A DNA stretch of 64,000 bases from the NCBI RefSeq assembly GCF_005222785.1, contig NZ_STGH01000002.1, positions 372,001-436,000 of the forward strand, read 5' to 3'. The position numbers and the translations under genes are program-made. Source of the DNA: Rhodobacter sp. SY28-1. GTDB lineage: Bacteria > Pseudomonadota > Alphaproteobacteria > Rhodobacterales > Rhodobacteraceae. The stretch's first letter is position 1, and the number at the start of each line of letters is the position of its first letter. Below are positions 40,604 to 51,412 of this stretch, piece after piece. A model generated the notes under the pieces. It searched no databases and had not been told where the DNA came from. It saw only the letters and a program-made list of their open reading frames with translations.

Positions 40604-41316
40604 GCTGCAGGCCCCGTCATCAGGGGACGGATCTTGGCGACATGGGACTGGAATTCCTCTTCGGACACATCCCGGTTGCCGAACAGCACCCTCTCTCCGG
40701 CCATCACCAGGGCGCGCAGAGCGTCAAGATGCGCCTGCGCCTTCGGAATATGGCGCAGCGCGTCCCGCATCGTCCAGCTTGGCTGCAGGATCACTCCGTT
40801 CGCCGCGATGGTGCGCGCAAGGGCGGCCTGGACCAGCATCACCAGCGCGCGCCTGCGGTCTGCTGTCGTAAGGATCGCCTGCAGATCCGCCGGAGTGCCG
40901 ATGTCGGCGAGCGACTGCTGCCCCCGCAGCCGCCGGGACCGGGCCGGGTTCTGCACCTCGCCCTCCAGCGAAAACGTCAGCCCACCCCCGAACTGCAGGA
41001 AGATCAGCATCACCCCGATCAGGATAGCCACGGCAATCACGATAATCACCAGGTCCGACGGCGCATGAATCTCGGTCGTTCCGTCACTTTCCGTCGGCGC
41101 CTTCTGCGGGTCCTGCCTGGTCTCCAGCGGGGGCAAGGCGCCAGTTGGATCATAGTAGCCGACGTCGGTGTCGATGCCACGGTAGCCCAGAGAGTCCAGA
41201 TAAGCCTCGCCGGACGGCCTGATCTCCAGCGGTTGAGCAGTCACCTCCTGCGCGCTTGCCGCGAAGGGGGAAAGGGAAAGACACAGAACAAGAATTGCGC
41301 AACGAAAAGACCGCAT
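40600..41316 (-). CDS. DUF4129 domain protein with signal peptide
   Basis: 238 residues. Signal peptide (CAILVLCLSLSPFAASAQ), a periplasmic stretch of about 60 residues, one membrane helix (LVIIVIAVAILIGVMLIFLQ), then the DUF4129 core (ALVMLVQAALARTIAANGV; LQPSWTMRDALRHIP; LVMAGERVLFGNRDVSEEEF). DUF4129 is often fused to transglutaminase-like proteins, but here it stands alone as the first gene of the MoxR operon. ATG at 41316 gives the signal peptide; a TTG at 41352 is the alternative. Stop overlaps the next start. Confidence 0.8.
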   Translation of the reverse strand: MRSFRCAILVLCLSLSPFAASAQEVTAQPLEIRPSGEAYLDSLGYRGIDTDVGYYDPTGALPPLETRQDPQKAPTESDGTTEIHAPSDLVIIVIAVAILIGVMLIFLQFGGGLTFSLEGEVQNPARSRRLRGQQSLADIGTPADLQAILTTADRRRALVMLVQAALARTIAANGVILQPSWTMRDALRHIPKAQAHLDALRALVMAGERVLFGNRDVSEEEFQSHVAKIRPLMTGPAA

Positions 41317-41416
41317 GGCAATAGGGTTAGCCGAACAAATGCCCTGCCGCAATCGGCCTGCGCCTCAGGGCCATTGCCCTTTTGCCCCTCCGTCTGGGTT
41401 GTGGCCGGATGCGCTG

Positions 41417-42229
41417 TCAGCCGCGGTCCGGCCCGGTCCGCCCGGTATCCAGATGCGGGATCATGAGCGCGAAGAGTTCCGCCTGGGACGAAATCCCGCA
41501 GCGTTCATAGATTTGTCGGCGGAACACCTTGACGGTCAGCGGCGACAGGCCCAGCCGCTGCGCGATCGACGCGGTCGAATGCCCGCGCAGGATCAGAAGC
41601 GCTACCTCGCTTTGCCGACCCGACAGGAGGATGCCCCTATCCCGCTCCAGCGCCTTCTTCATGCGGGCCAGGGCATCGGGCCCAGCCTGCGCCGGGGCGG
41701 CAATGTCGGGCCAGTGCCGCTCGGCCAGTGCTGTGACGATGGGGGCGATCCGGTGACAGGTCTCGATTGCCCGGGCCGAAAAGGCACGGCCCGAACTCGC
41801 GTCACGCGCCAGGCACAAGGTCAACCCGACACCGGGGCGCGGATAGAGAAGAAAGCCGACCTCATCCAGGATCGTCGTCTGCTGGTAGTATTCCTGGAAA
41901 TAGCGGCTGCGGTGAAAGGCATCCGGGGCGATCTCCAACAGCCGGTAGGCCCCTGGCGGCGCCTCTGACAACTGAAGCTCATAGAGGGGGTCCAGAAGAT
42001 AGGCCCCATCGACATAGGTTGTCTCGATCTGGGCAAAGACCCTGGGGTCCGATGCCTTGTGAAACAGCACCTGCGGCGCATTGCCCTTGGGAAAGGCCAG
42101 GATGACCAGATTGTCCGCCTCGGTCGCCGCGACAAGATAGTCGAACAGGGCTGCCGGAAAATCGGGCGTTCCGGTTGCCCGGATGGCAGCGGCAAGACCG
42201 CTTTCTATCGAATTCTGGTCTGTGCGCAT
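41417..42229 (-). CDS. LuxR-type transcriptional regulator
   Basis: 270 residues. The C-terminal GerE helix-turn-helix is clear ([40 protein letters not shown]). The N-terminal 180 residues ([32 protein letters not shown]) look like a GAF/autoinducer-like sensor but lack an assured acyl-homoserine-lactone motif. It is divergent from the amine importer/oxidoreductase operon with only 78 bases between, containing repeated GGGTAT motifs, so it is the likely pathway regulator. Similar solitary LuxR proteins sense metabolites. Confidence 0.85.
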
Positions 42230-42243
42230 CGATACCTCTGCGG

Positions 42244-42300
42244 GGGTATATACAACCTGAAACGCCCCAAGATACCCTTTCTTACCGAATCAAGGGGTAT
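42244..42300. promoter_or_regulatory. Three GGGTAT motifs in the divergent LuxR/importer promoter
   Basis: GGGTATA (42244-42250), its inverse ATACCC (42272-42277) and GGGTAT (42295-42300) lie in the 78-base divergent region. The second and third form an imperfect inverted repeat (ATACCCTT / AAGGGGTAT), and the first and third are direct repeats 51 bases apart. They are plausible binding sites for the LuxR-type regulator. Confidence 0.45.
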
Positions 42301-42307
42301 ACCATAC

Positions 42308-43366
42308 ATGCAGACGGCGATCTCGATCCGCCAGGCCGTGAAACGCTATGGACCGATCACCGCCCTGCATGGCGTGTCGATGGATATCGCCGATAATGAG
42401 TTCTTCACGCTCCTCGGCCCCTCGGGCTGCGGCAAGACCACGCTTTTGCGGATGCTTGCCGGGTTCGAGGATGTGACCGAAGGCGAGATCCACTTGTTCG
42501 GCGAAAGGATCGCGTCCCTCCCCCCGGAAAAGCGCCCGGTCAACACGGTCTTCCAGCAATACGCGCTGTTTCCACACCTGACCGTGCTGGAAAACGTGGC
42601 CTTCGGCCTGAAGATGAAGGGCGTCCCCTTGTCCGACCGGAACGCGCGCGCCGGAAAGATGCTGGAGCTTGTGCACCTCTCGGGCTTCGCCGACCGCAAG
42701 CCCTCCCAGCTTTCGGGCGGCCAACAGCAACGCGTTGCCCTTGCCCGCGCGCTGGCGCCGCAGCCGAAGGTCCTGCTTCTGGACGAACCCCTGTCAGCGC
42801 TTGACCTGAAGCTACGGCAAGCGATGCGGGTGGAACTGAAGTTACTGCAGGAAGAAACCGGGATCACCTTCATCTTCGTCACCCATGACCAGGAGGAAGC
42901 CCTGGCCATGTCCGACCGGATCGCCGTGATGTCCTCAGGCCAGGTCCAGCAGATCGGCACGCCGCGCGAAATCTACGAAGCTCCCGTCAACCGCTTCGTC
43001 GCCGACTTCATCGGCGAGACCAACCTGATCGAGGTGGACGTGGACACCGTAACCGACGGCCAGGCCACCGTCACACTTCCCGGTGGCCACACCGTGGTCT
43101 GCGCGGCGGCCTCCAACAACAGCGGACGCCATGCCCTGTCGATCCGGCCCGAACGCGTTGCCATCACCGACCATGCCCCCGACCTGCAGGCCACGGTCGA
43201 ACGGGTGATCTACCTTGGCACTGACCTGCACCTGATCACCCGGCTGGACGGAGGTGAACCGTTCTCCCTTCGCTTGCAGAACGCCTCCCGCGTGGCCCTG
43301 CCGGAACCCGGCGCGCGGATCGGGCTTAAACTGGAGGAAGGCGCGGCCCGCCTTCTGGCCGACTGA
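42308..43366 (+). CDS. potA: PotA-like ABC importer ATP-binding protein (polyamine type)
   Basis: 352 residues. Walker [29 protein letters not shown] (PotA-type Q-loop), [30 protein letters not shown] and [19 protein letters not shown], then a C-terminal TOBE domain ([30 protein letters not shown]). It energises uptake of a polyamine or similar cation. ATG at 42308 follows AAGGGG. First gene of a tightly overlapped operon; its stop shares a base with the next start. Substrate is inferred from family only. Confidence 0.92.
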
Positions 43367-44295
43367 TGGCCGGGGCTGCACCCACCCCCTCGCCCGAAGC
43401 AGGCGGCAGCGACGCCACCTATGCGCGCCTGCGCCGACCCCTTCTGGCGCCAACCTGGACGGTGATCGGCGTCTTCCTGCTGCTGCCCGTTCTCCTGATG
43501 GTCGTCTACTCCTTCCTGACCAAGGAATTCCGCGGCGGCGTCGAATGGGATTTCACCCTTGCCGCCTATGACCAGTTCTTCGTCACGCGCGGCCTTTTTG
43601 GGGACGAGCCCGCCCAGATCGAATGGACCTACATCACCATCTTCTGGCGATCGATCTGGCAGGCCGGGCTGGCCACGTTCCTCTGCCTGCTGATCGGCTT
43701 TCCCACCGCCTGGTTCATCGCCACCAGGCCTGAGGCCTCGCGCCCCATCTGGCTGTTCCTGATAACCATCCCCTACTGGGTCAACCTCCTAATCCGCACC
43801 GTCTCCCTCCGCTTCATCCTGCGCGACCAGGGCCCGATGAACGACGCACTGATCGGACTTGGCGTGATCTCCCAACCGCTTGAGATCCTGAACACCAACC
43901 TCGCCGTGCAGCTTGGCCTCTTCTACAGCTACCTCCCCTTCATGGTCCTGCCGATCTACGCCGCAGTCGAGCGCTACAACTTTGCCCTCTCCGAAGCCGC
44001 TGCCGACCTTGGCGCCAACCGCTGGCGCGCGCTGTTCGAGGTCGTCCTGCCGGTCGTCCGCCCCGGCATCGTCGCCGGCTGCATCCTGGTCTTCGTCCCG
44101 GCCCTCGGCGCCTTCCTCGCGCCCGACCTTCTTGGCGGTGCCAAGACCTTCATGATCGGTTCGCTGATTGACGAACAGTTCCGCGGCAGCCAGGGCAACT
44201 GGCCCTTCGGAGCTGCCGTCTCGGTCATCCTGATGACGCTGGTGCTGATCGTTCTGATGATCCAGGCCCGCGCTGCGGCGAGGGCCGGGCAATGA
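43366..44295 (+). CDS. potB: PotB-like ABC importer permease
   Basis: 309 residues, six membrane helices ([20 protein letters not shown] at the start). The EAA loop reads [30 protein letters not shown] in two parts, the PotB/PotC class pattern. It pairs with the next permease. The start overlaps the ATPase stop by one base and the stop overlaps the next gene by 4 bp. Confidence 0.9.
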
Positions 44296-45092
44296 AGGGC
44301 GTCCGTCATTATCCCGGCTTTCTGGCCGTCACGCTCCTTTGCCTTCTGGTCCTCTACCTGCCGCTGACCGTTGTGGCGGCCTATTCCTTCAATGGCTCCA
44401 CCTCGATCACTACCTGGGGCGGCTTCTCGCTGCGCTGGTATGCCGATGTCTTCACCGGGCCGGAGGCCACGCGCTTTGGCCAAGCCGCCTGGAACTCGCT
44501 GACCATCGCCATCATCGCCTCGACAGTTTCGACCGTGATCGCCACGGCGGCGGCACTGGCGATGATCCGCAGTGGCCGGTTCCGCGGCAAGACCGCCAGC
44601 TACGCCCTGATCAACCTGCCGCTTCTGGTGCCCGAAATCGTGATCGCCGTCGCGACCCTGATCTTCTTCACCACAATCGGGCTGACCACGGGTTACCTGA
44701 CCATCCTCATCGCCCACATCACCTTCTGCATCCCCTTCGCCTACCTGCCCATCGCCGCCCGGCTGTCGGGGATCGAAGGCCACTACGAACAGGCCGCCCG
44801 CGACCTTTACGCCAGCCCCTGGCAGGCCTTCCGCCTGATCCTGCTGCCCCTTCTGGGCCCCGGCATCCTGTCGGGCTTCCTTCTGGCCTTCATCATCAGC
44901 CTCGACGACTTCATCATCACCAACTTCGTCAAAGGCGCCGGGATGGAGACCCTTCCGACCGCGATCTTCGGGTCGGTCAAGCAGGGGATCAAACCCAACA
45001 TCATGGCGATCTCGACCATGATGCTGGGGGTTTCCGTCCTTTTCGTCAGCCTCAGCTATCTGATCAACCGCAAGGGCCGCCCGGCCCGATAA
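44292..45092 (+). CDS. potC: PotC-like ABC importer permease
   Basis: 266 residues, six helices ([20 protein letters not shown] first). The [17 protein letters not shown] motif after helix 1 and the EAA loop [20 protein letters not shown] are characteristic of PotC. It forms a heterodimeric channel with PotB. Start ATG overlaps the PotB stop (ATGA). Confidence 0.92.
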
Positions 45093-45109
45093 GCACAGGG
45101 AGACACCGC

Positions 45110-46126
45110 ATGAAACGACTTCTGGCTCTCACCACCCTTCTCGCCACCCCGGCCTTTGCCGAGGGCGAGCTGAAGGTCTATCACTGGTTCGAATACATCC
45201 CGCAGGAACTGGTCGACAAGTTCACCGCCGAAACCGGGATCACCGTCACCATCGACACCTACGACAGCAACGAGGCGATGCTGGCCTCGCTGAAAGCCGG
45301 GAAACTCGGCCAGTACGACGTGGCCGTCCCCGGCGACTACATGGTCGAGATCATGCGCGGCGAGGGGATCCTTGGTGAATACGCGCCCGAGGAAATGCCG
45401 AACTTCGCCAACATCGAACCGCAATGGCTGGACGTCCCGTTCGACCCGGGCCGCAAGCACTCGATCCCCTACCAGTGGGGCTCGACCGCGTTCTCGGTGA
45501 ACCGCGACGTCTACCAGGGCGACATCAACAGCCTCGGCATCATCTTCAACCCGCCGGAAGAGCTGAAGGGCAAGATCAACGTCCTCGACAGCCAGGGCGA
45601 GGTTCTGGCGCTCGGCTCACTGTATCTGGGCATCCCCCAATGCACCACCGACCGCGAACAGCTGAAGGCGCTGAACGACATGCTGCTGGCGGCAAAGGAA
45701 AATTGGGCCTCGTTCGGGTCCGACATTGCCAAAGACGTTCTGGTCTCGGGCGATGCGGCGGCCGGGATGATCTACAACGGCTTTTCCGCAAAGGCCCGGG
45801 CCGAGGGCGCGAATGTCGAATATGCCTTCCCCAAGGAAGGCTACGTCCTGTGGATGGACAACATGGTGCTGCTGAAGGACGCCCCGAACCGCGACAACGC
45901 GATCAAGTTCATGAACTTCCTGCTTGATCCCCAGAACGCCGCCGCCGTCACCAACTACGCCGCCTACAGTCCCGGCGTCAAAGGCGCGACCGAGTTCCTG
46001 GATGCCGCGATCAAGGACTCGCCGGAAAACAACCCGCCTGCAGACCAGAAAGGCGAATTCATCATCGCCTGCGATGCCGAAACCCAGGCGCTGTACGACG
46101 CGATCTGGACCAACCTGAAAAAGTAA
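45110..46126 (+). CDS. potD: PotD/PotF-like periplasmic polyamine-binding protein
   Basis: 338 residues. A short signal peptide (MKRLLALTTLLATPAFA) is followed by LKVYHWFEYIPQELVDKFTA, the standard start of polyamine-binding PotD/PotF. YDVAVPGDYMVEIM, YQWGSTAFSVNRDVY and PKEGYVLWMDNMVLLKDA follow family order; aromatic and acidic residues (W, E, D) line the usual pocket. ATG 45110 has AGGGAG. It is last of the four importer genes, before the hydrolase gene (gap 66 bases). Confidence 0.9.
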   Translation: MKRLLALTTLLATPAFAEGELKVYHWFEYIPQELVDKFTAETGITVTIDTYDSNEAMLASLKAGKLGQYDVAVPGDYMVEIMRGEGILGEYAPEEMPNFANIEPQWLDVPFDPGRKHSIPYQWGSTAFSVNRDVYQGDINSLGIIFNPPEELKGKINVLDSQGEVLALGSLYLGIPQCTTDREQLKALNDMLLAAKENWASFGSDIAKDVLVSGDAAAGMIYNGFSAKARAEGANVEYAFPKEGYVLWMDNMVLLKDAPNRDNAIKFMNFLLDPQNAAAVTNYAAYSPGVKGATEFLDAAIKDSPENNPPADQKGEFIIACDAETQALYDAIWTNLKK

Positions 46127-46192
46127 CGCCAACCCTTGTGCGCCTTGCCCGACCGCACGATCCGGCAGGGCGCCCCACCCGATGGTGACCTG

Positions 46193-46948
46193 ATGCGCCT
46201 TGCCGTCCTCCAAGCCCCCTCTGCCGGGGGTGACCTTTCTGCTGCCTGCGTGGCGGTCGAGCAGGCCCTTGCCGCCGCCGCCGCCGCGGGCGCGACCGTC
46301 CTTGTCGTGCCCGAGGTCTTCCTGCCCGGCTACAACCACCCCGAAGTGGCCCGGCTTGCCCTTGCCGACGACGCCCCAGCGCTGCAGCGCGTGCGTCAGG
46401 CAGCGCGGACGGCAGGCACCGCCCTTGTCGTAGGCTATGCCGAAGCGGACGCCGGTCTGGTCTGGAACACCGCCCTCTGCATCGGGCCGGACGGGCACGA
46501 CTTTGCCCGCTACCGCAAGATCCAGCTCTACGGCCCGCGGGAAAAGTCGATCTACACGCCGGGCGACCGCTTTGTGACCTTCACCCTTGCGGGCCGGAAA
46601 CTCGCCCTTCTCATCTGCTACGACGTGGAATTCGCCCCCCATGTCGCCGCCCTCGCCGCCGAAGGGGTCGAGGCGATCCTAGCCCCCACCGCCAACATGA
46701 TGCCCTTCACCCATGTCGTGCGGCACACCGTCCCCGCGATGGCCGCCAACCACGGCCTTGCCATCGCCTACGCCAACTTTTGCGGCACCGAGGGCGATCT
46801 GACCTATGTCGGCGGCAGCCTCATCGCCGGCCCGCATGGAGAGGTTCTGGCGCAGGCGGGGGAACATCCCGCCCTCCTGATCGCCGACATTCCGCCGGTC
46901 GATCCGCAGCGGATCACGACCCAGGCCCAGGATTACCGGAAAGTCTGA
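46193..46948 (+). CDS. Carbon-nitrogen hydrolase (nitrilase superfamily)
   Basis: 251 residues. The Glu-Lys-Cys catalytic set is intact: Glu in VLVVPEVFLPGYN, Lys in ARYRKIQLYGPREK, Cys in LALLICYDVEFAP. The closest subfamily look is that of N-carbamoylputrescine amidase or omega-amidase-like aliphatic amidases. It would cut an amide, carbamoyl or nitrile group from the imported compound or its product. The ATG at 46193 has GGTGA nearby; an earlier frame start at 46136 lacks conserved residues. The flavoprotein gene follows in 4 bases. Confidence 0.87.
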   Translation: MRLAVLQAPSAGGDLSAACVAVEQALAAAAAAGATVLVVPEVFLPGYNHPEVARLALADDAPALQRVRQAARTAGTALVVGYAEADAGLVWNTALCIGPDGHDFARYRKIQLYGPREKSIYTPGDRFVTFTLAGRKLALLICYDVEFAPHVAALAAEGVEAILAPTANMMPFTHVVRHTVPAMAANHGLAIAYANFCGTEGDLTYVGGSLIAGPHGEVLAQAGEHPALLIADIPPVDPQRITTQAQDYRKV

Positions 46949-46952
46949 ACCC

Positions 46953-49046
46953 ATGACCCGCGACCCCCGCTATGACATCCTGTTCGACCCCGTTCAGATC
47001 GGGCCAAAACGGGCGAAGAACCGCTTCTACCAGGTCCCCCATTGCAACGGTGGCGGCTACCGTGACCCCTCGGCCGTGGTCGAGATGCGCCGCACCAAGG
47101 CCGAAGGCGGCTGGGGCGTGATCTTCACCGAACAGACCGAAATCCATCCCTCGTCCGAGATCACCCCCTTCATCGAACAGCACCTGTGGGAGGACAAGGA
47201 TATCCCCGCCCTCGCCCGCATGGCAGAGGCGATGAAAAGCCACGGCGCGCTGGCGGGCATCCAGCTGGCCTATTCCGGCATCAACGGCCCGAACCTTTAT
47301 TCCCGCGATGTGCCGCTTGCCGTGACGGGCGGCCCGATCCTGACCTTCACCTCCGACCCGGTGCAGGCCCGCACCCTGGACCGAGAGGACATCCGCGACC
47401 TCCGCCGCTGGTTCCGCCACGCCTTCCGCCGCGCCCAGACCGCGGGCTTCGACCTGATCTGCCTTTACGGCGCGCATGGCTTCGGCATCTTCCAGCACTT
47501 CCTGTCGCGCGCCACTAACCACCGCACCGATGAATACGGCGGGTCTCTGGAAAACCGTGGCCGCTTCCTGCGCGAAGTGATCGACGAGGCCCGGGAAGAG
47601 ACCAAGGGCGAACTGGCCATCACCTACCGGATGAGCCTGCACGAAGACGGCCCCTACGGCTTTTCCAACGCCGAGGTGCGCGACTTCGTCGAAATGCACG
47701 GCGACCTCCCCGATCTCTGGGACCTCGCCCACGGGACATGGGAGGCCTGCAGCGGTACCTCGCGTTTCAAGGGCGAAGCCGCACAAGAGGATCTCGTGCG
47801 CGGCATCAAGGCGCTTACCTCGCGCCCGGTTGTCGGCGTCGGTCGCTTCACCAGCGCCGATGCCATGGTGCGCCAGATCAGGTCCGGCATCCTCGATTTC
47901 ATCGGCGCAGCCCGCCCCTCAATCGCCGACCCCTTCCTGCCAAAGAAGATTCAGGAAGGCCGGATCGAGGACATCCGCGAATGCATCGGCTGCAACATCT
48001 GCGTCACCGGTGACATGACCGGCAGCATCAGCCGCTGCACCCAGAACACCGCATTCATGGAGGAATGGCGCAAGGGCTGGCACCCCGAACGCCCGCGTCC
48101 CAAGGGGCCTTCAACCAGCGTCCTGATCGTCGGCGCAGGCCCCACCGGGCTGGAGGCCGCCCTACAATCCGCCCGGCGCGGCTATCAGGTGACGCTCGCC
48201 GAGGCGACGACGACCCTCGGCGGCCGCGTGGCCAAGGAACGCCTTCTCCCCGGCCTCTCCGCCTGGGGCCGCGTGGCCGACTACCGCAACGGCCAGATCG
48301 CGCCTCTCACGAACCTCGATGTCTACCGAGACAGCCGCCTGACCGCCGACGACATCCTCGCTATGGGGGCCGAACACGTGGCCATCGCCACCGGCGCCAC
48401 CTGGCGGCGCGATGCCGTGGCGCGGCTGTATCTGCACCCGATCCCGACCGACCCCGCAATGCCCGTCTTCACCCCCGACGACCTGATGGCAGGCGGTGGA
48501 CCGACGGGCGGGCGCGTCACGCTCTACGACGACGACCATTTCTACATGGGCTCGGTCCTGGCCGAGCTTCTGGTCGCGCGGGGCTGCACCGTCGATCTCG
48601 TTTGCCCCGCGACAAAGATCGCCGAATGGGCGAAGAACACGCTGGAACAAGGCATCATCATGCGCCGGATGCTGGACATCGGGGTCAACGTCATCGTCAA
48701 CAAAGCCCCCGAAGCCATCGGCGCGGGAGAGGTCATTCTCGCCTGCACCTGGACCGGTCGCACCGAAACCCTCCCCGCCGACGCCGTGGTCATGGTCACC
48801 TCCCGCACGCCGCAGGACGCGCTCTACCACGATCTCCGCGCCCGGCAGTCCGAGTGGGAAGCCTCAGGCATCCGCTCCGTCAAGCTGATCGGCGATGCCG
48901 CCGCCCCCGGCCCCATCGCCTGGGCCACCTACGCCGGTCGCCGCTTTGCCGAGGAACTGGACATACCCGACGACCGCGGCGACACCCCCGCCTTCCGGCG
49001 CGAGGTCGCAGCCCTAGACCCCCTCCCCTCACGCCTTCCCGCCTGA
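46953..49046 (+). CDS. TMADH/DMADH-like FMN/4Fe-4S/FAD-domain oxidoreductase
   Basis: 697 residues, close to the family's 729. N-terminal FMN barrel: DILFDPVQIGPKRAKNRFYQ, with Cys31 in YQVPHCNGGG at the site of the 6-S-cysteinyl-FMN Cys of trimethylamine dehydrogenase, and YGAHGFG keeping the catalytic Tyr-His. Cys344, 347, 350 and 362 (CIGCNIC then SRC) bind the 4Fe-4S cluster. The C-terminal Rossmann part starts VLIVGAGPTGLEAALQSARR. TMADH's substrate-cage Tyr60 is Gln61 here and the Trp264/Asp267 stretch is not conserved (GTWEACSGTSRF; aligned from memory). It is therefore probably an N-dealkylating amine dehydrogenase for a substrate other than trimethylamine, such as a methylated amine or betaine. 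Confidence 0.9.
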   Translation: MTRDPRYDILFDPVQIGPKRAKNRFYQVPHCNGGGYRDPSAVVEMRRTKAEGGWGVIFTEQTEIHPSSEITPFIEQHLWEDKDIPALARMAEAMKSHGALAGIQLAYSGINGPNLYSRDVPLAVTGGPILTFTSDPVQARTLDREDIRDLRRWFRHAFRRAQTAGFDLICLYGAHGFGIFQHFLSRATNHRTDEYGGSLENRGRFLREVIDEAREETKGELAITYRMSLHEDGPYGFSNAEVRDFVEMHGDLPDLWDLAHGTWEACSGTSRFKGEAAQEDLVRGIKALTSRPVVGVGRFTSADAMVRQIRSGILDFIGAARPSIADPFLPKKIQEGRIEDIRECIGCNICVTGDMTGSISRCTQNTAFMEEWRKGWHPERPRPKGPSTSVLIVGAGPTGLEAALQSARRGYQVTLAEATTTLGGRVAKERLLPGLSAWGRVADYRNGQIAPLTNLDVYRDSRLTADDILAMGAEHVAIATGATWRRDAVARLYLHPIPTDPAMPVFTPDDLMAGGGPTGGRVTLYDDDHFYMGSVLAELLVARGCTVDLVCPATKIAEWAKNTLEQGIIMRRMLDIGVNVIVNKAPEAIGAGEVILACTWTGRTETLPADAVVMVTSRTPQDALYHDLRARQSEWEASGIRSVKLIGDAAAPGPIAWATYAGRRFAEELDIPDDRGDTPAFRREVAALDPLPSRLPA

Positions 49047-49059
49047 AAGGACCCAGACG

Positions 49060-50280
49060 ATGAACACCGAACATGTCGATACCCTGGTGATCGGGGCCGG
49101 ACAGGCAGGCATCGCGACCTCGGTCCATCTGGGCCGCAAGGGAGTGCCGCATCTGGTGCTGGAACGCCACCAGATCGCCCACCGCTGGCGGGCCGAACGC
49201 TGGGATTCCCTCGTCGCAAATGGCCCCGCCTGGCATGACCGCTTTCCCGACATGGAATTCGCCACCGATCCCGACGCCTTCCCGGGGAAAGAGGACGTGG
49301 CCGACTACCTCCGCGCCTTCGCCCGCGCGAACAAGGCCCCGATCCGCGAAGGGGTCGAGGTCACGCATCTGACCCAAGGCGACGACGGCCTCTTCCACGC
49401 CACCACCCCCGCCGGAACGATCACCGCGCGCAACGTGGTCTCCGCCACCGGCTCCTTCCAGAAACCGATGATCCCGCCGCTGGTCCCCGCCGACCTTGGC
49501 CTGATGCAGATCCACTCCACCCACTACCGCAACCCCGCGCAACTGCCACCGGGTGGCGTTCTGGTCGTCGGCGGCGGCTCCTCCGGCACCCAGATCGCCG
49601 ACGAGTTGAACCGCGCAGGCCGCAAGACCTGGCTCTCGCTTGGCCCCCACGACCGCCCGCCCCGGCGCTACCGCGGCAAGGATTTCGTCTGGTGGCTAGG
49701 CGCGCTGGGGAAATGGGACCTCGAAGCCCCCGCCCCGGGAACCGAGCATGTGACCATCGCCGTCTCGGGCGCCTATGGCGGACTGAACATCGACTTCCGC
49801 CGTCTGGCCGGTGAGGGGCTGCACCTTCTTGGCCGGACCGAAGCCTGCAAGGACGGCGTCCTGTCCATTGCCGACGACCTGCAACGAAACATCGCGAACG
49901 GCGACAGCTACCTGGCCAACCTCCTCGACGAATGTGACGCACACGTCCAAGAACAGGGCCTCGACCTGCCCGAGGACCCCGAGGCCCGCCGCATCTACCC
50001 CGACCCGGACTGCCTGACCCGCCCGACCCGTATGCTGGACCTGAAGGCGCAAGGCATCGGAACGATCATCTGGGCCACCGGTTTCACCTATGACTACGGC
50101 TGGCTGGACCTGCCCGTGCTGACCCCCGAAGGTCGGCCAGACCATTCCCGGGGCGTAACGCGCGTCCCCGGCTTCTACTTCGTCGGCCTGCCCTGGCTGA
50201 CACGGCGCGGCTCCAGTTTTATCTGGGGCTGCTGGAAAGACGGCGAACACATTGCGACCCAGGTCGCGTCCAGGACATGA
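49060..50280 (+). CDS. Flavin-containing monooxygenase / NAD(P)/FAD oxidoreductase
   Basis: 406 residues. The FAD Rossmann motif is DTLVIGAGQAGIATSVHLGR (GxGxxG); the NADPH site is GVLVVGGGSSGTQIADELNR (GxGxSG); ATGF near the end (IIWATGFTYDYGWL) is the FMO-type linker motif. It belongs to the CzcO/FMO-like group that hydroxylates nitrogen, sulphur or carbon atoms. It lies 13 bases after the TMADH-like gene and before RidA, so it may open the substrate by N-oxygenation. A single NADPH-flavin site, with no electron-transfer partner needed. Confidence 0.87.
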   Translation: MNTEHVDTLVIGAGQAGIATSVHLGRKGVPHLVLERHQIAHRWRAERWDSLVANGPAWHDRFPDMEFATDPDAFPGKEDVADYLRAFARANKAPIREGVEVTHLTQGDDGLFHATTPAGTITARNVVSATGSFQKPMIPPLVPADLGLMQIHSTHYRNPAQLPPGGVLVVGGGSSGTQIADELNRAGRKTWLSLGPHDRPPRRYRGKDFVWWLGALGKWDLEAPAPGTEHVTIAVSGAYGGLNIDFRRLAGEGLHLLGRTEACKDGVLSIADDLQRNIANGDSYLANLLDECDAHVQEQGLDLPEDPEARRIYPDPDCLTRPTRMLDLKAQGIGTIIWATGFTYDYGWLDLPVLTPEGRPDHSRGVTRVPGFYFVGLPWLTRRGSSFIWGCWKDGEHIATQVASRT

Positions 50281-50290
50281 GGCACGGAAA

Positions 50291-50710
50291 ATGACCACTC
50301 ACACTCGCTATCGCAAGTTCAACACCAAGGTAACCTACCCCGAACAGAACCTGGACAACGACCTTTGCCACCTGGTCGCGACCCGGGGCGGCACGACCCT
50401 CTGGTTCCGCGGCGCCTGCCCGCAGGACCTCGACACGTCCAAAAGCCTGATGACCACCGACGCGGCGGAACAGGCGCACAAGGTGATGCAGAACATCAAG
50501 CAACTGATCGAGGAAGCCGGCGGCAAGATGGAGCATCTGGTCAAGCTGGTCGTCTACCTGACCGACGTCCGCCACCGCGAGCCGGTCTACCGGGTGATGG
50601 GCGAATACATCAAGGGCGTCCACCCGGTCTGCACCGGGCTGACCGTCGTCGCCCTCGCCCGCCCGGAATGGCTGGTCGAGATCGACGCAACCGCCGTCAT
50701 CCCCGACTGA
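50291..50710 (+). CDS. RidA family protein
   Basis: 139 residues. TLWFRGACPQDLDTSKSLM, AHKVMQNIKQLIEEAGGKME, LVKLVVYLTDVRHREPVYRV and GLTVVALARPEWLVEIDATA match RidA/YjgF. The ending EWLVEIDATAV keeps the family pattern but the canonical active-site Arg is replaced by a PEW-type segment, as in non-archetypal Rid groups. As last gene of the operon (10 bases after the monooxygenase), it probably hydrolyses imine products of the amine dehydrogenase. A small GGGGC/GCCCC hairpin follows at 50734-50748. Confidence 0.87.
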   Translation: MTTHTRYRKFNTKVTYPEQNLDNDLCHLVATRGGTTLWFRGACPQDLDTSKSLMTTDAAEQAHKVMQNIKQLIEEAGGKMEHLVKLVVYLTDVRHREPVYRVMGEYIKGVHPVCTGLTVVALARPEWLVEIDATAVIPD

Positions 50711-50755
50711 CCGCACCTTCCCCGATCAGGGTTGGGGCCTCGCGCCCCGCCCGGC

Positions 50756-51412
50756 TCAGGCCGCAACCGGCTCGATCAACTGCGCCCCAAAGGCGCGGTT
50801 GGAGTTCACCTCGACCCCCACGCGATAAGGCTTGGTCATCACTCCCTCGGCGGTGGCCTTCATTAGGACCGCTGCCCCATGCCCCGCCTCACCCAGCCAC
50901 AAGGGCCAGTCCTCGCGCTCCAGGATCACCGGCTCGCGGTGGTGGATCGCCCCCATCCCCGGCCCGGCTTCCGTCGAGACGATGGCGACCGTATCCATGT
51001 CGCCCCAGCGCTGCCAGACTCCCGCCAGCGCCATCGGCAGACCGTCCGCCCGGGTGAAATACCACGGCAGCCGCGCCTTGTTCTCGCCCTCGCTCCATTC
51101 ATAGAAGCCACTGGCCGGGACGATGCACCGCCGCTCACGGATCGCGGCCTTGAAGGCGGGCTTCGTCGCCACCGTATCCGACCGCGCATTGATGATCAGC
51201 GGCCCGTCATTCGGCGCCTTGTACCAGCTTGGGATGAACCCCCAGCGCATCGCCCGCAGCCGCCGGACCCCGCCGTCCGAGGTCACCACGGCCACCGTAT
51301 TCGTCGGGCAGACGTTGAAGTTCGGCGTCATCGGCAGGTCATTACCCGGTACGGCATCGAACAGCGCCGCCAGCGCCTCGTTCGGATGGGTGATGGTGAA
51401 ACGCCCGCACAT
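50756..51412 (-). CDS. yedK: SRAP-family (YedK/HMCES) abasic-site DNA-protein crosslink protein
   Basis: 218 residues. Met1 is followed by the catalytic Cys2 (MCGRFTITHPNEALAALF), which binds abasic sites covalently after Met removal. NVCPTNTVAVV, RAMRWGFIPSWYK, INARSDTV, RRCIVPASGFYEW (active-site Glu) and AIHHREPVILE (catalytic His) complete the SRAP domain. It protects abasic sites in single-stranded DNA. Convergent with the preceding RidA gene. Stop at 50756. Confidence 0.94.
   Translation of the reverse strand: MCGRFTITHPNEALAALFDAVPGNDLPMTPNFNVCPTNTVAVVTSDGGVRRLRAMRWGFIPSWYKAPNDGPLIINARSDTVATKPAFKAAIRERRCIVPASGFYEWSEGENKARLPWYFTRADGLPMALAGVWQRWGDMDTVAIVSTEAGPGMGAIHHREPVILEREDWPLWLGEAGHGAAVLMKATAEGVMTKPYRVGVEVNSNRAFGAQLIEPVAA

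Follow-up and report, generated by a model that had tools for sequence, protein, structure and literature searches.

A putative operon for histamine catabolism with a divergent LuxR-type regulator gene in Rhodobacter sp. SY28-1

Gene content of the locus and identity of the dehydrogenase

A candidate system for the uptake and degradation of an amine is encoded in Rhodobacter sp. SY28-1 within a stretch of 64,000 nucleotides (positions 372001-436000 of contig C2, NZ_STGH01000002.1; hereafter the window) of a genome of 4.28 Mb that is 98.9% complete. Nine genes are present as placed by a preliminary description made from the sequence alone (Table 1), namely a divergent LuxR-type regulator gene and genes for an ATP-binding cassette (ABC) importer, a C-N hydrolase, a flavoprotein dehydrogenase, a flavin adenine dinucleotide (FAD) monooxygenase (FMO), and a RidA-family protein. 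The plus-strand genes either overlap by 1-4 bases or are separated by gaps of 4-66 bases, and it is therefore plausible that they constitute a single operon. A scan of positions 41300-50900 for sigma-70 promoters returned none, with 1.2 expected.

Table 1 Features of the locus in window coordinates. Gene starts were set by eye from the list of open reading frames, the sequence, and alignments
Feature	Position	Strand	Basis or remark
LuxR-type regulator	41417..42229	-	GerE 5.3e-10; divergent from operon
Candidate operator GGGGGTATATACAACC	42242..42257	.	Two mismatches to palindrome GGGGGTATATACCCCC
Possible second, shortened operator-like site GGGGTATACC	42294..42303	.	Just 5' of potA; seen in the sequence
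PotA-like ABC ATPase	42308..43366	+	TIGR01187 potA subfamily, above cut-off
PotB-like permease	43366..44295	+	PotB is best NCBIfam match, below curated cut-off
PotC-like permease	44292..45092	+	PotC is best NCBIfam match, below curated cut-off
PotD-like substrate-binding protein	45110..46126	+	Best match PotD, no curated cut-off passed
C-N hydrolase (nitrilase superfamily)	46193..46948	+	PF00795 3.9e-44
Histamine dehydrogenase (HDH) by sequence, clade A; 6-S-Cys-FMN, 4Fe-4S	46953..49046	+	Homology, pocket columns, tree
FMO, HinF-like	49060..50280	+	Family match; HinF label by gene-order correspondence
RidA-family protein	50291..50710	+	Family match; HinL-like by gene order

Judged by its sequence, the flavoprotein is a histamine dehydrogenase (HDH) of the known family, and the changed specificity that had been proposed for an enzyme resembling trimethylamine dehydrogenase (TMADH) is not supported as a new property. 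Its best matches among solved chains are the HDHs of Rhizobium (6de6, 1070 bits) and Nocardioides (3k30, 810 bits), followed by 6l6j (648 bits), an entry without a telling name, and TMADH (1djn, 478 bits); it shares 68% identity with the Rhizobium enzyme, the score of which exceeds that of TMADH more than twofold. Twenty columns were compared, mostly positions of the active site and tunnel that PMC10180351 gives for Rhizobium HDH, together with a few neighbours. Nineteen of them are identical, including all nine of Gln60, Ile69, Phe72, Glu74, Asn110, Tyr171, Phe176, Trp263, and Asp354 (Rhizobium HDH numbering), and the sole difference is the replacement of Asp265 by alanine. The pocket residues Gln65, Ile74, Phe77, Glu79, Asn115, Trp267, and Asp358 of Nocardioides HDH are likewise common to the window enzyme. 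As the residue comparison in the preliminary description had rightly stated, the flavin mononucleotide (FMN) cysteine (C31), the cysteines of the 4Fe-4S cluster (CIGCNIC...C), and Tyr172 and His175 are kept. The aromatic bowl of TMADH, which we take to consist of Tyr60, Trp264, and Trp355, is not kept: Trp263 is present, Trp355 lies opposite a gap beside Asp354, which is the HDH residue, and Tyr60 is aligned with Gln61. This last change had been correctly recognized, but it had been missed that glutamine is the residue of histamine dehydrogenases at this place. The nearest named relatives of the enzyme come from Tabrizicola, Rhodobacter, Gemmobacter, and the like. A second TMADH/HDH-like protein of the same genome (C4:176593-177585, 46-47% identical) carries alanine at the place of the FMN cysteine and tyrosine at that of Gln61; it likely has a different function.

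A scan of genome contigs for relatives of the dehydrogenase gave at least 358 matches, of which the best 80 (L007-L086) were kept, a sample that leans to close relatives. In a tree built by a quick method, with midpoint root and Shimodaira-Hasegawa-like approximate likelihood-ratio (SH-aLRT) support, the group containing the window enzyme (support 94) and the group containing Rhizobium HDH (support 87) are sister clades, here designated A and B. Rows were assigned by identity to the window enzyme, clade A comprising the window and L007-L043 (38 rows) and clade B Rhizobium HDH and L044-L086 (44 rows); L045, placed at the base of A in the tree, was counted in B. An acid occupies position 265 in all 44 rows of clade B (Asp 42, Glu 2, Rhizobium HDH included) and in 3 of the 38 rows of clade A (Ala 25, Gln 5, Asn 4, Asp 2, Glu 1, Ser 1). 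Nocardioides HDH has glycine in this column and aspartate in the next one, where the window and Rhizobium enzymes have cysteine; the column of the acid is therefore not constant within the HDH family.

Putative genes for imidazole-4-acetate breakdown and for uptake

The hin pathway of histamine degradation is reportedly the subject of a paper by De la Torre et al. 2018. The pathway described in Pseudomonas starts with an aminotransferase; histamine is converted to imidazole-4-acetate by HinC and HinD, and imidazole-4-acetate to aspartate via HinF, HinL, HinH, and HinG (PMC8231116 and PMC6467879). A table in the latter source labels HinF as FAD-monooxygenase (EC 1.14.13.5), HinL as enamine deaminase, HinH as amidase, and HinG as amidase (EC 3.5.1.8); the same source lists P. 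putida HinF and HinL under the accession numbers AWA45229 and AWA45230. On plasmids of Mycolicibacterium, Burkholderia, and Ideonella, the annotated order FMO-RidA-DUF1028-M20 equals the order hinF, hinL, hinH, hinG, and the same set occurs rearranged in Acetobacter. By this correspondence in gene order, the window FMO would be an imidazoleacetate monooxygenase like HinF and the window RidA a HinL-like protein, while DUF1028 and M20 proteins would represent HinH and HinG; a literature search on 'DUF1028' returned no paper. No HDH is annotated in the Mycolicibacterium and Burkholderia plasmid stretches around the module, and an HDH-like gene (58%) lies about 9 kb beyond it on the Ideonella plasmid. 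A Leisingera plasmid cluster has the order FMO-RidA-DUF1028-aldehyde dehydrogenase-LysR-HDH-dodecin-M20-aspartase-ABC importer; this region and those of the four preceding genera were picked among the matches listed and are not a sample. FMO, DUF1028, aldehyde dehydrogenase, LysR, M20, and HDH genes also stand together in a Mesorhizobium locus.

The FMO was matched in 10 of the 37 loci of clade A and in 27 of the 43 of clade B, many of which are cut by contig ends. A clade B cluster of Tabrizicola sp. SY72 encodes a RidA (L073:7719-8135) with 90% identity to that of the window, while the FMOs of the two share only 62%; a patchwork origin is possible. Other genes near the module were seen as well: a dodecin gene directly 3' of HDH in Leisingera (L089:12079-12285), and, recurrently, two further genes. 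One, for a GMC oxidoreductase, is annotated in L091 and was identified by eye in L052 and L055; the other, for a cytosine-permease-like transporter, carries this annotation in both L091 and L088.

Co-occurrence was analysed in a single draw of 120 family genomes, one per genus and with the genome of SY28-1 included, at thresholds of our choosing; the Fisher p values take no account of shared ancestry. HDH was present in 24 genomes, FMO in 41, DUF1028 and M20 in 43 each, and the C-N hydrolase in 18. FMO accompanied HDH in 22 of 24 genomes and the C-N hydrolase in 15 of 18, and FMO genomes contained DUF1028 in 40 and M20 in 37 of 41 cases. The two genomes with HDH and without FMO at the threshold used (G013 and G054) have the most distant HDHs (53-54% identity); these adjoin PotC/PotD-like genes (L130, L131), and both genomes have DUF1028 and M20. 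In SY28-1 itself, the monooxygenase and RidA genes of the window are complemented by a DUF1028 gene near a contig end (C4:194314-194982), which shares 87% identity with that of the clade A locus L014, and by an M20 candidate (C2:980259-981389), which could be a plain acetylornithine deacetylase or another deacylase. A PhoU-like gene, identified by eye, stands beside DUF1028 in this genome (L105:7123-7830) and adjoins luxR in a locus from Tabrizicola (L041:2-748).

The best matches of the four importer proteins are PotA, PotB, PotC, and PotD, and only PotA passes its curated cut-off. At positions that we take to form the spermidine pocket of PotD, the PotD-like protein keeps Trp34, Glu36, Tyr37, Tyr85, Glu171, Ser211, Trp255, and Asp257 and has the changes Thr35 to Phe, Ser83 to Gly, Asp168 to Ser, and Trp229 to Tyr; a pocket changed in this way could accommodate a primary amine that differs from spermidine. 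The C-N hydrolase had matches in 32 of the 37 loci of clade A, but the Leisingera cluster, which looks complete, has none annotated over 22 kb; the enzyme thus looks accessory. As a guess, it may free histamine from an amide or remove formamide. A role as stand-in for HinG was considered and found to be unsupported, 16 of the 18 genomes with the hydrolase also having an M20 candidate.

The regulator and its candidate operator

A luxR homologue lies upstream of the operon and divergent from it in 29 of 37 clade A loci, and the palindrome GGGGGTATATACCCCC is located at the junction in all 29 luxR-bearing loci of L007-L086 (19 perfect copies, seven with one mismatch, and three with two mismatches). 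The pattern was matched 29 times in 1.46 Mb, the reversed pattern serving as control not once, and within two mismatches the palindrome was found in none of the 43 clade B loci (L044-L086). Among 24 loci of 5 kb (L108-L131, the window's own included), the three with a luxR match (L111, L127, and L128) are the same three that have the palindrome within two mismatches; the HDHs of L127 and L128 are only 65-66% identical to that of the window. A wider regulon in SY28-1 was not borne out by a scan of the genome, which gave six places within three mismatches versus four for the reversed pattern; two of the six, the window site and C3:469361, have two mismatches. The latter place (C3:469361-469376 in L133, GGGGGTATGTGCCCCC) may be due to chance. 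On the stretch around the DUF1028 gene of this genome (L105), which ends with the contig, no palindrome was found within four mismatches.

A structure model of the regulator (27 sequences; mean predicted local distance difference test score, pLDDT, of 85) has its best fold match in the ligand-binding domain of VqsR (5xhx), with further matches to CviR, QscR, RhlR, LasR, and other receptors, whereas at a cut-off of E 0.001 Pfam recognized in the sequence only GerE and no autoinducer-binding domain. The protein is thus a LuxR-type regulator with an autoinducer-domain-like predicted fold and a likely operator. Its ligand may be histamine or imidazole-4-acetate, and the palindrome its binding site. 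A LysR gene stands beside HDH in several clade B loci, as Pseudomonas has HinK, and the clade A locus L023 carries both LuxR-type and LysR-type genes; the best solved matches of the LysR regulators of the relatives are 6m5f and 3fzv ('Probable transcriptional regulator').

Proposed pathway, alternatives, and known systems

Homology, pocket residues, gene order, co-occurrence, and palindrome conservation were computed; every substrate, the electron acceptor, and the choice of the aldehyde dehydrogenase and M20 enzyme that would serve the pathway are inferred. Very probably, the operon imports histamine and begins its breakdown, by HDH-catalyzed deamination and imidazoleacetate oxidation, under LuxR-type control. 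Histamine would enter by the PotABCD-type ABC transporter and be oxidatively deaminated by the FMN/Fe-S-containing HDH, with release of ammonia, to imidazole-4-acetaldehyde. From this, an aldehyde dehydrogenase with its gene outside the operon would form imidazole-4-acetate, the ring of which would be attacked by the HinF-like monooxygenase with O2 and NAD(P)H. The conversion to aspartate would be completed by the HinL-like RidA and two proteins encoded elsewhere, a HinH-like DUF1028 protein and a HinG-like M20 deacylase, and the divergent regulator would act through the palindromic operator. The regulator's ligand, the sign of its action, and its binding to the palindrome are put forward as predictions, as is the role of the C-N hydrolase. 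The earlier view of an amine-catabolism operon with importer, divergent LuxR-type regulator, monooxygenase, and RidA, the substrate not being trimethylamine, is supported. Histamine, which had been among the candidate ligands named, is favoured by homology, by the residues of the pocket, and by the genome context. The predicted N-dealkylation or N-hydroxylation is not upheld, as HDH deaminates a primary amine and gene order links the monooxygenase to HinF; imine clearance by RidA is possible.

Several observations speak against this assignment, the main one being that the window enzyme has Ala265 in place of Asp265, the catalytic-triad acid of Rhizobium HDH. When this residue was subjected to saturation mutagenesis in the latter enzyme, every active clone was unsubstituted, about 90 colonies being screened per library (PMC10180351). 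The acids gained in clade A are at positions 220, 561, and 667, none near 265 along the chain, and clade A would either compensate in an unseen way or differ in kinetics or substrate. In addition, the operon itself is devoid of aldehyde dehydrogenase, DUF1028, and M20 genes; among the aldehyde dehydrogenases of the genome, the one closest to that of Leisingera shares 48% identity with it and does not adjoin the module, and no particular one could be singled out for the pathway. The M20 candidate shares only 51% identity with its Leisingera counterpart. Among the 37 clade A loci, FMO lies directly 3' of HDH, as in the window, only in L020. The binding pocket of the PotD-like protein differs from that of PotD, and the labels HinF, HinL, HinH, and HinG were assigned from gene order and the table of PMC6467879, not from direct sequence comparison. 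Finally, at the threshold applied, 19 of the 41 FMO genomes lack HDH; the module thus also occurs independently of this enzyme, and other first steps must feed it there.

The loss of the acid at position 265 in clade A could also reflect a shift of the enzyme from histamine to a related amine such as N-methylhistamine, agmatine, or 1,3-diaminopropane, feeding a similar pathway. The clades are separated by 28 columns at 85% conservation each, including 76 and 77 beside the pocket residue Glu75, and Rhizobium HDH oxidises agmatine at 10% and 1,3-diaminopropane at 13% of the histamine rate (PMC10180351). We nevertheless consider such a shift unlikely, since the other 19 columns checked are the same as in Rhizobium HDH, FMO, RidA, and DUF1028 accompany both clades, and the products of agmatine or diaminopropane would need no imidazoleacetate monooxygenase. 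Highly improbable are an operon for a trimethylamine or dimethylamine dehydrogenase, despite the TMADH superfamily sequence and the cofactor cysteines, in view of Gln61, the gap opposite Trp355, and the far higher score against Rhizobium HDH, and equally a 6-hydroxypseudooxynicotine dehydrogenase (Pno)-type enzyme for N-heterocyclic alkaloids; although Pno is 46-48% identical to HDHs (PMC5500553), the window enzyme shares 68% identity with Rhizobium HDH and has its pocket. Catabolism of homarine (N-methylpicolinate), the initial candidate, was set aside upon the HDH match, without comparison to the hom genes.

As a histamine catabolic operon, the system would be ordinary in kind, its less usual points being the LuxR-type switch, the accessory C-N hydrolase, and the missing aspartate. 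The layout was not found described in the literature searched: among the titles listed for histamine catabolism in Rhodobacteraceae, none is on that subject by title, and among those containing 'histamine dehydrogenase', none announces such an operon. Because HDH and the same downstream module occur together in 22 of the 120 family genomes sampled, these bacteria may commonly feed on histamine. Further HDHs, enzymes of interest for assays of histamine in food, become available with the operon, as do a candidate switch of the LuxR type that has a defined palindrome and a natural test of the need for the triad aspartate. More tentatively, and with considerable doubt, we suggest that a LuxR-type receptor was recruited to sense histamine or imidazole-4-acetate via GGGGGTATATACCCCC, that this HDH clade works without the triad aspartate presumed to be essential, perhaps by a different base or on a shifted substrate, and that the C-N hydrolase opens an extra entry, e.g., for histamine amides. 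If true, a quorum-sensing-like receptor would respond to an amine of animals and food or to its product.

Three known systems are closest to the proposed one. The HDHs of Rhizobium sp. 4-9 (6de6) and Nocardioides simplex (3k30) resemble the window enzyme over their whole length, in the FMN and Fe-S cysteines, and in the Gln, Ile, Phe, Glu, Asn, Tyr, His, Arg, Trp, and Asp residues of the pocket; Rhizobium HDH differs from it in having Asp265 instead of Ala265, and the window enzyme belongs to a separate clade, the records of which are mostly titled with Rhodobacteraceae or Rhodobacterales genera. The Pseudomonas hin pathway (hinABCD, hinFLHG) is alike in the HinF-like monooxygenase and the HinL-like RidA, and its DUF1028 and M20 companions are found in relatives and elsewhere in the SY28-1 genome. 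In Pseudomonas, however, the HinC aminotransferase takes the place of HDH and the HinA permease that of the ABC importer, Pseudomonas and the relatives just mentioned have a LysR-type regulator where the window has a LuxR-type one, and the hin-type genes of SY28-1 are split between the operon and other places. LuxR solos and VqsR share with the window regulator the predicted autoinducer-binding-type sensor fold and the GerE domain, whereas the window regulator is distinguished by adjoining a putative histamine operon and the palindrome GGGGGTATATACCCCC.

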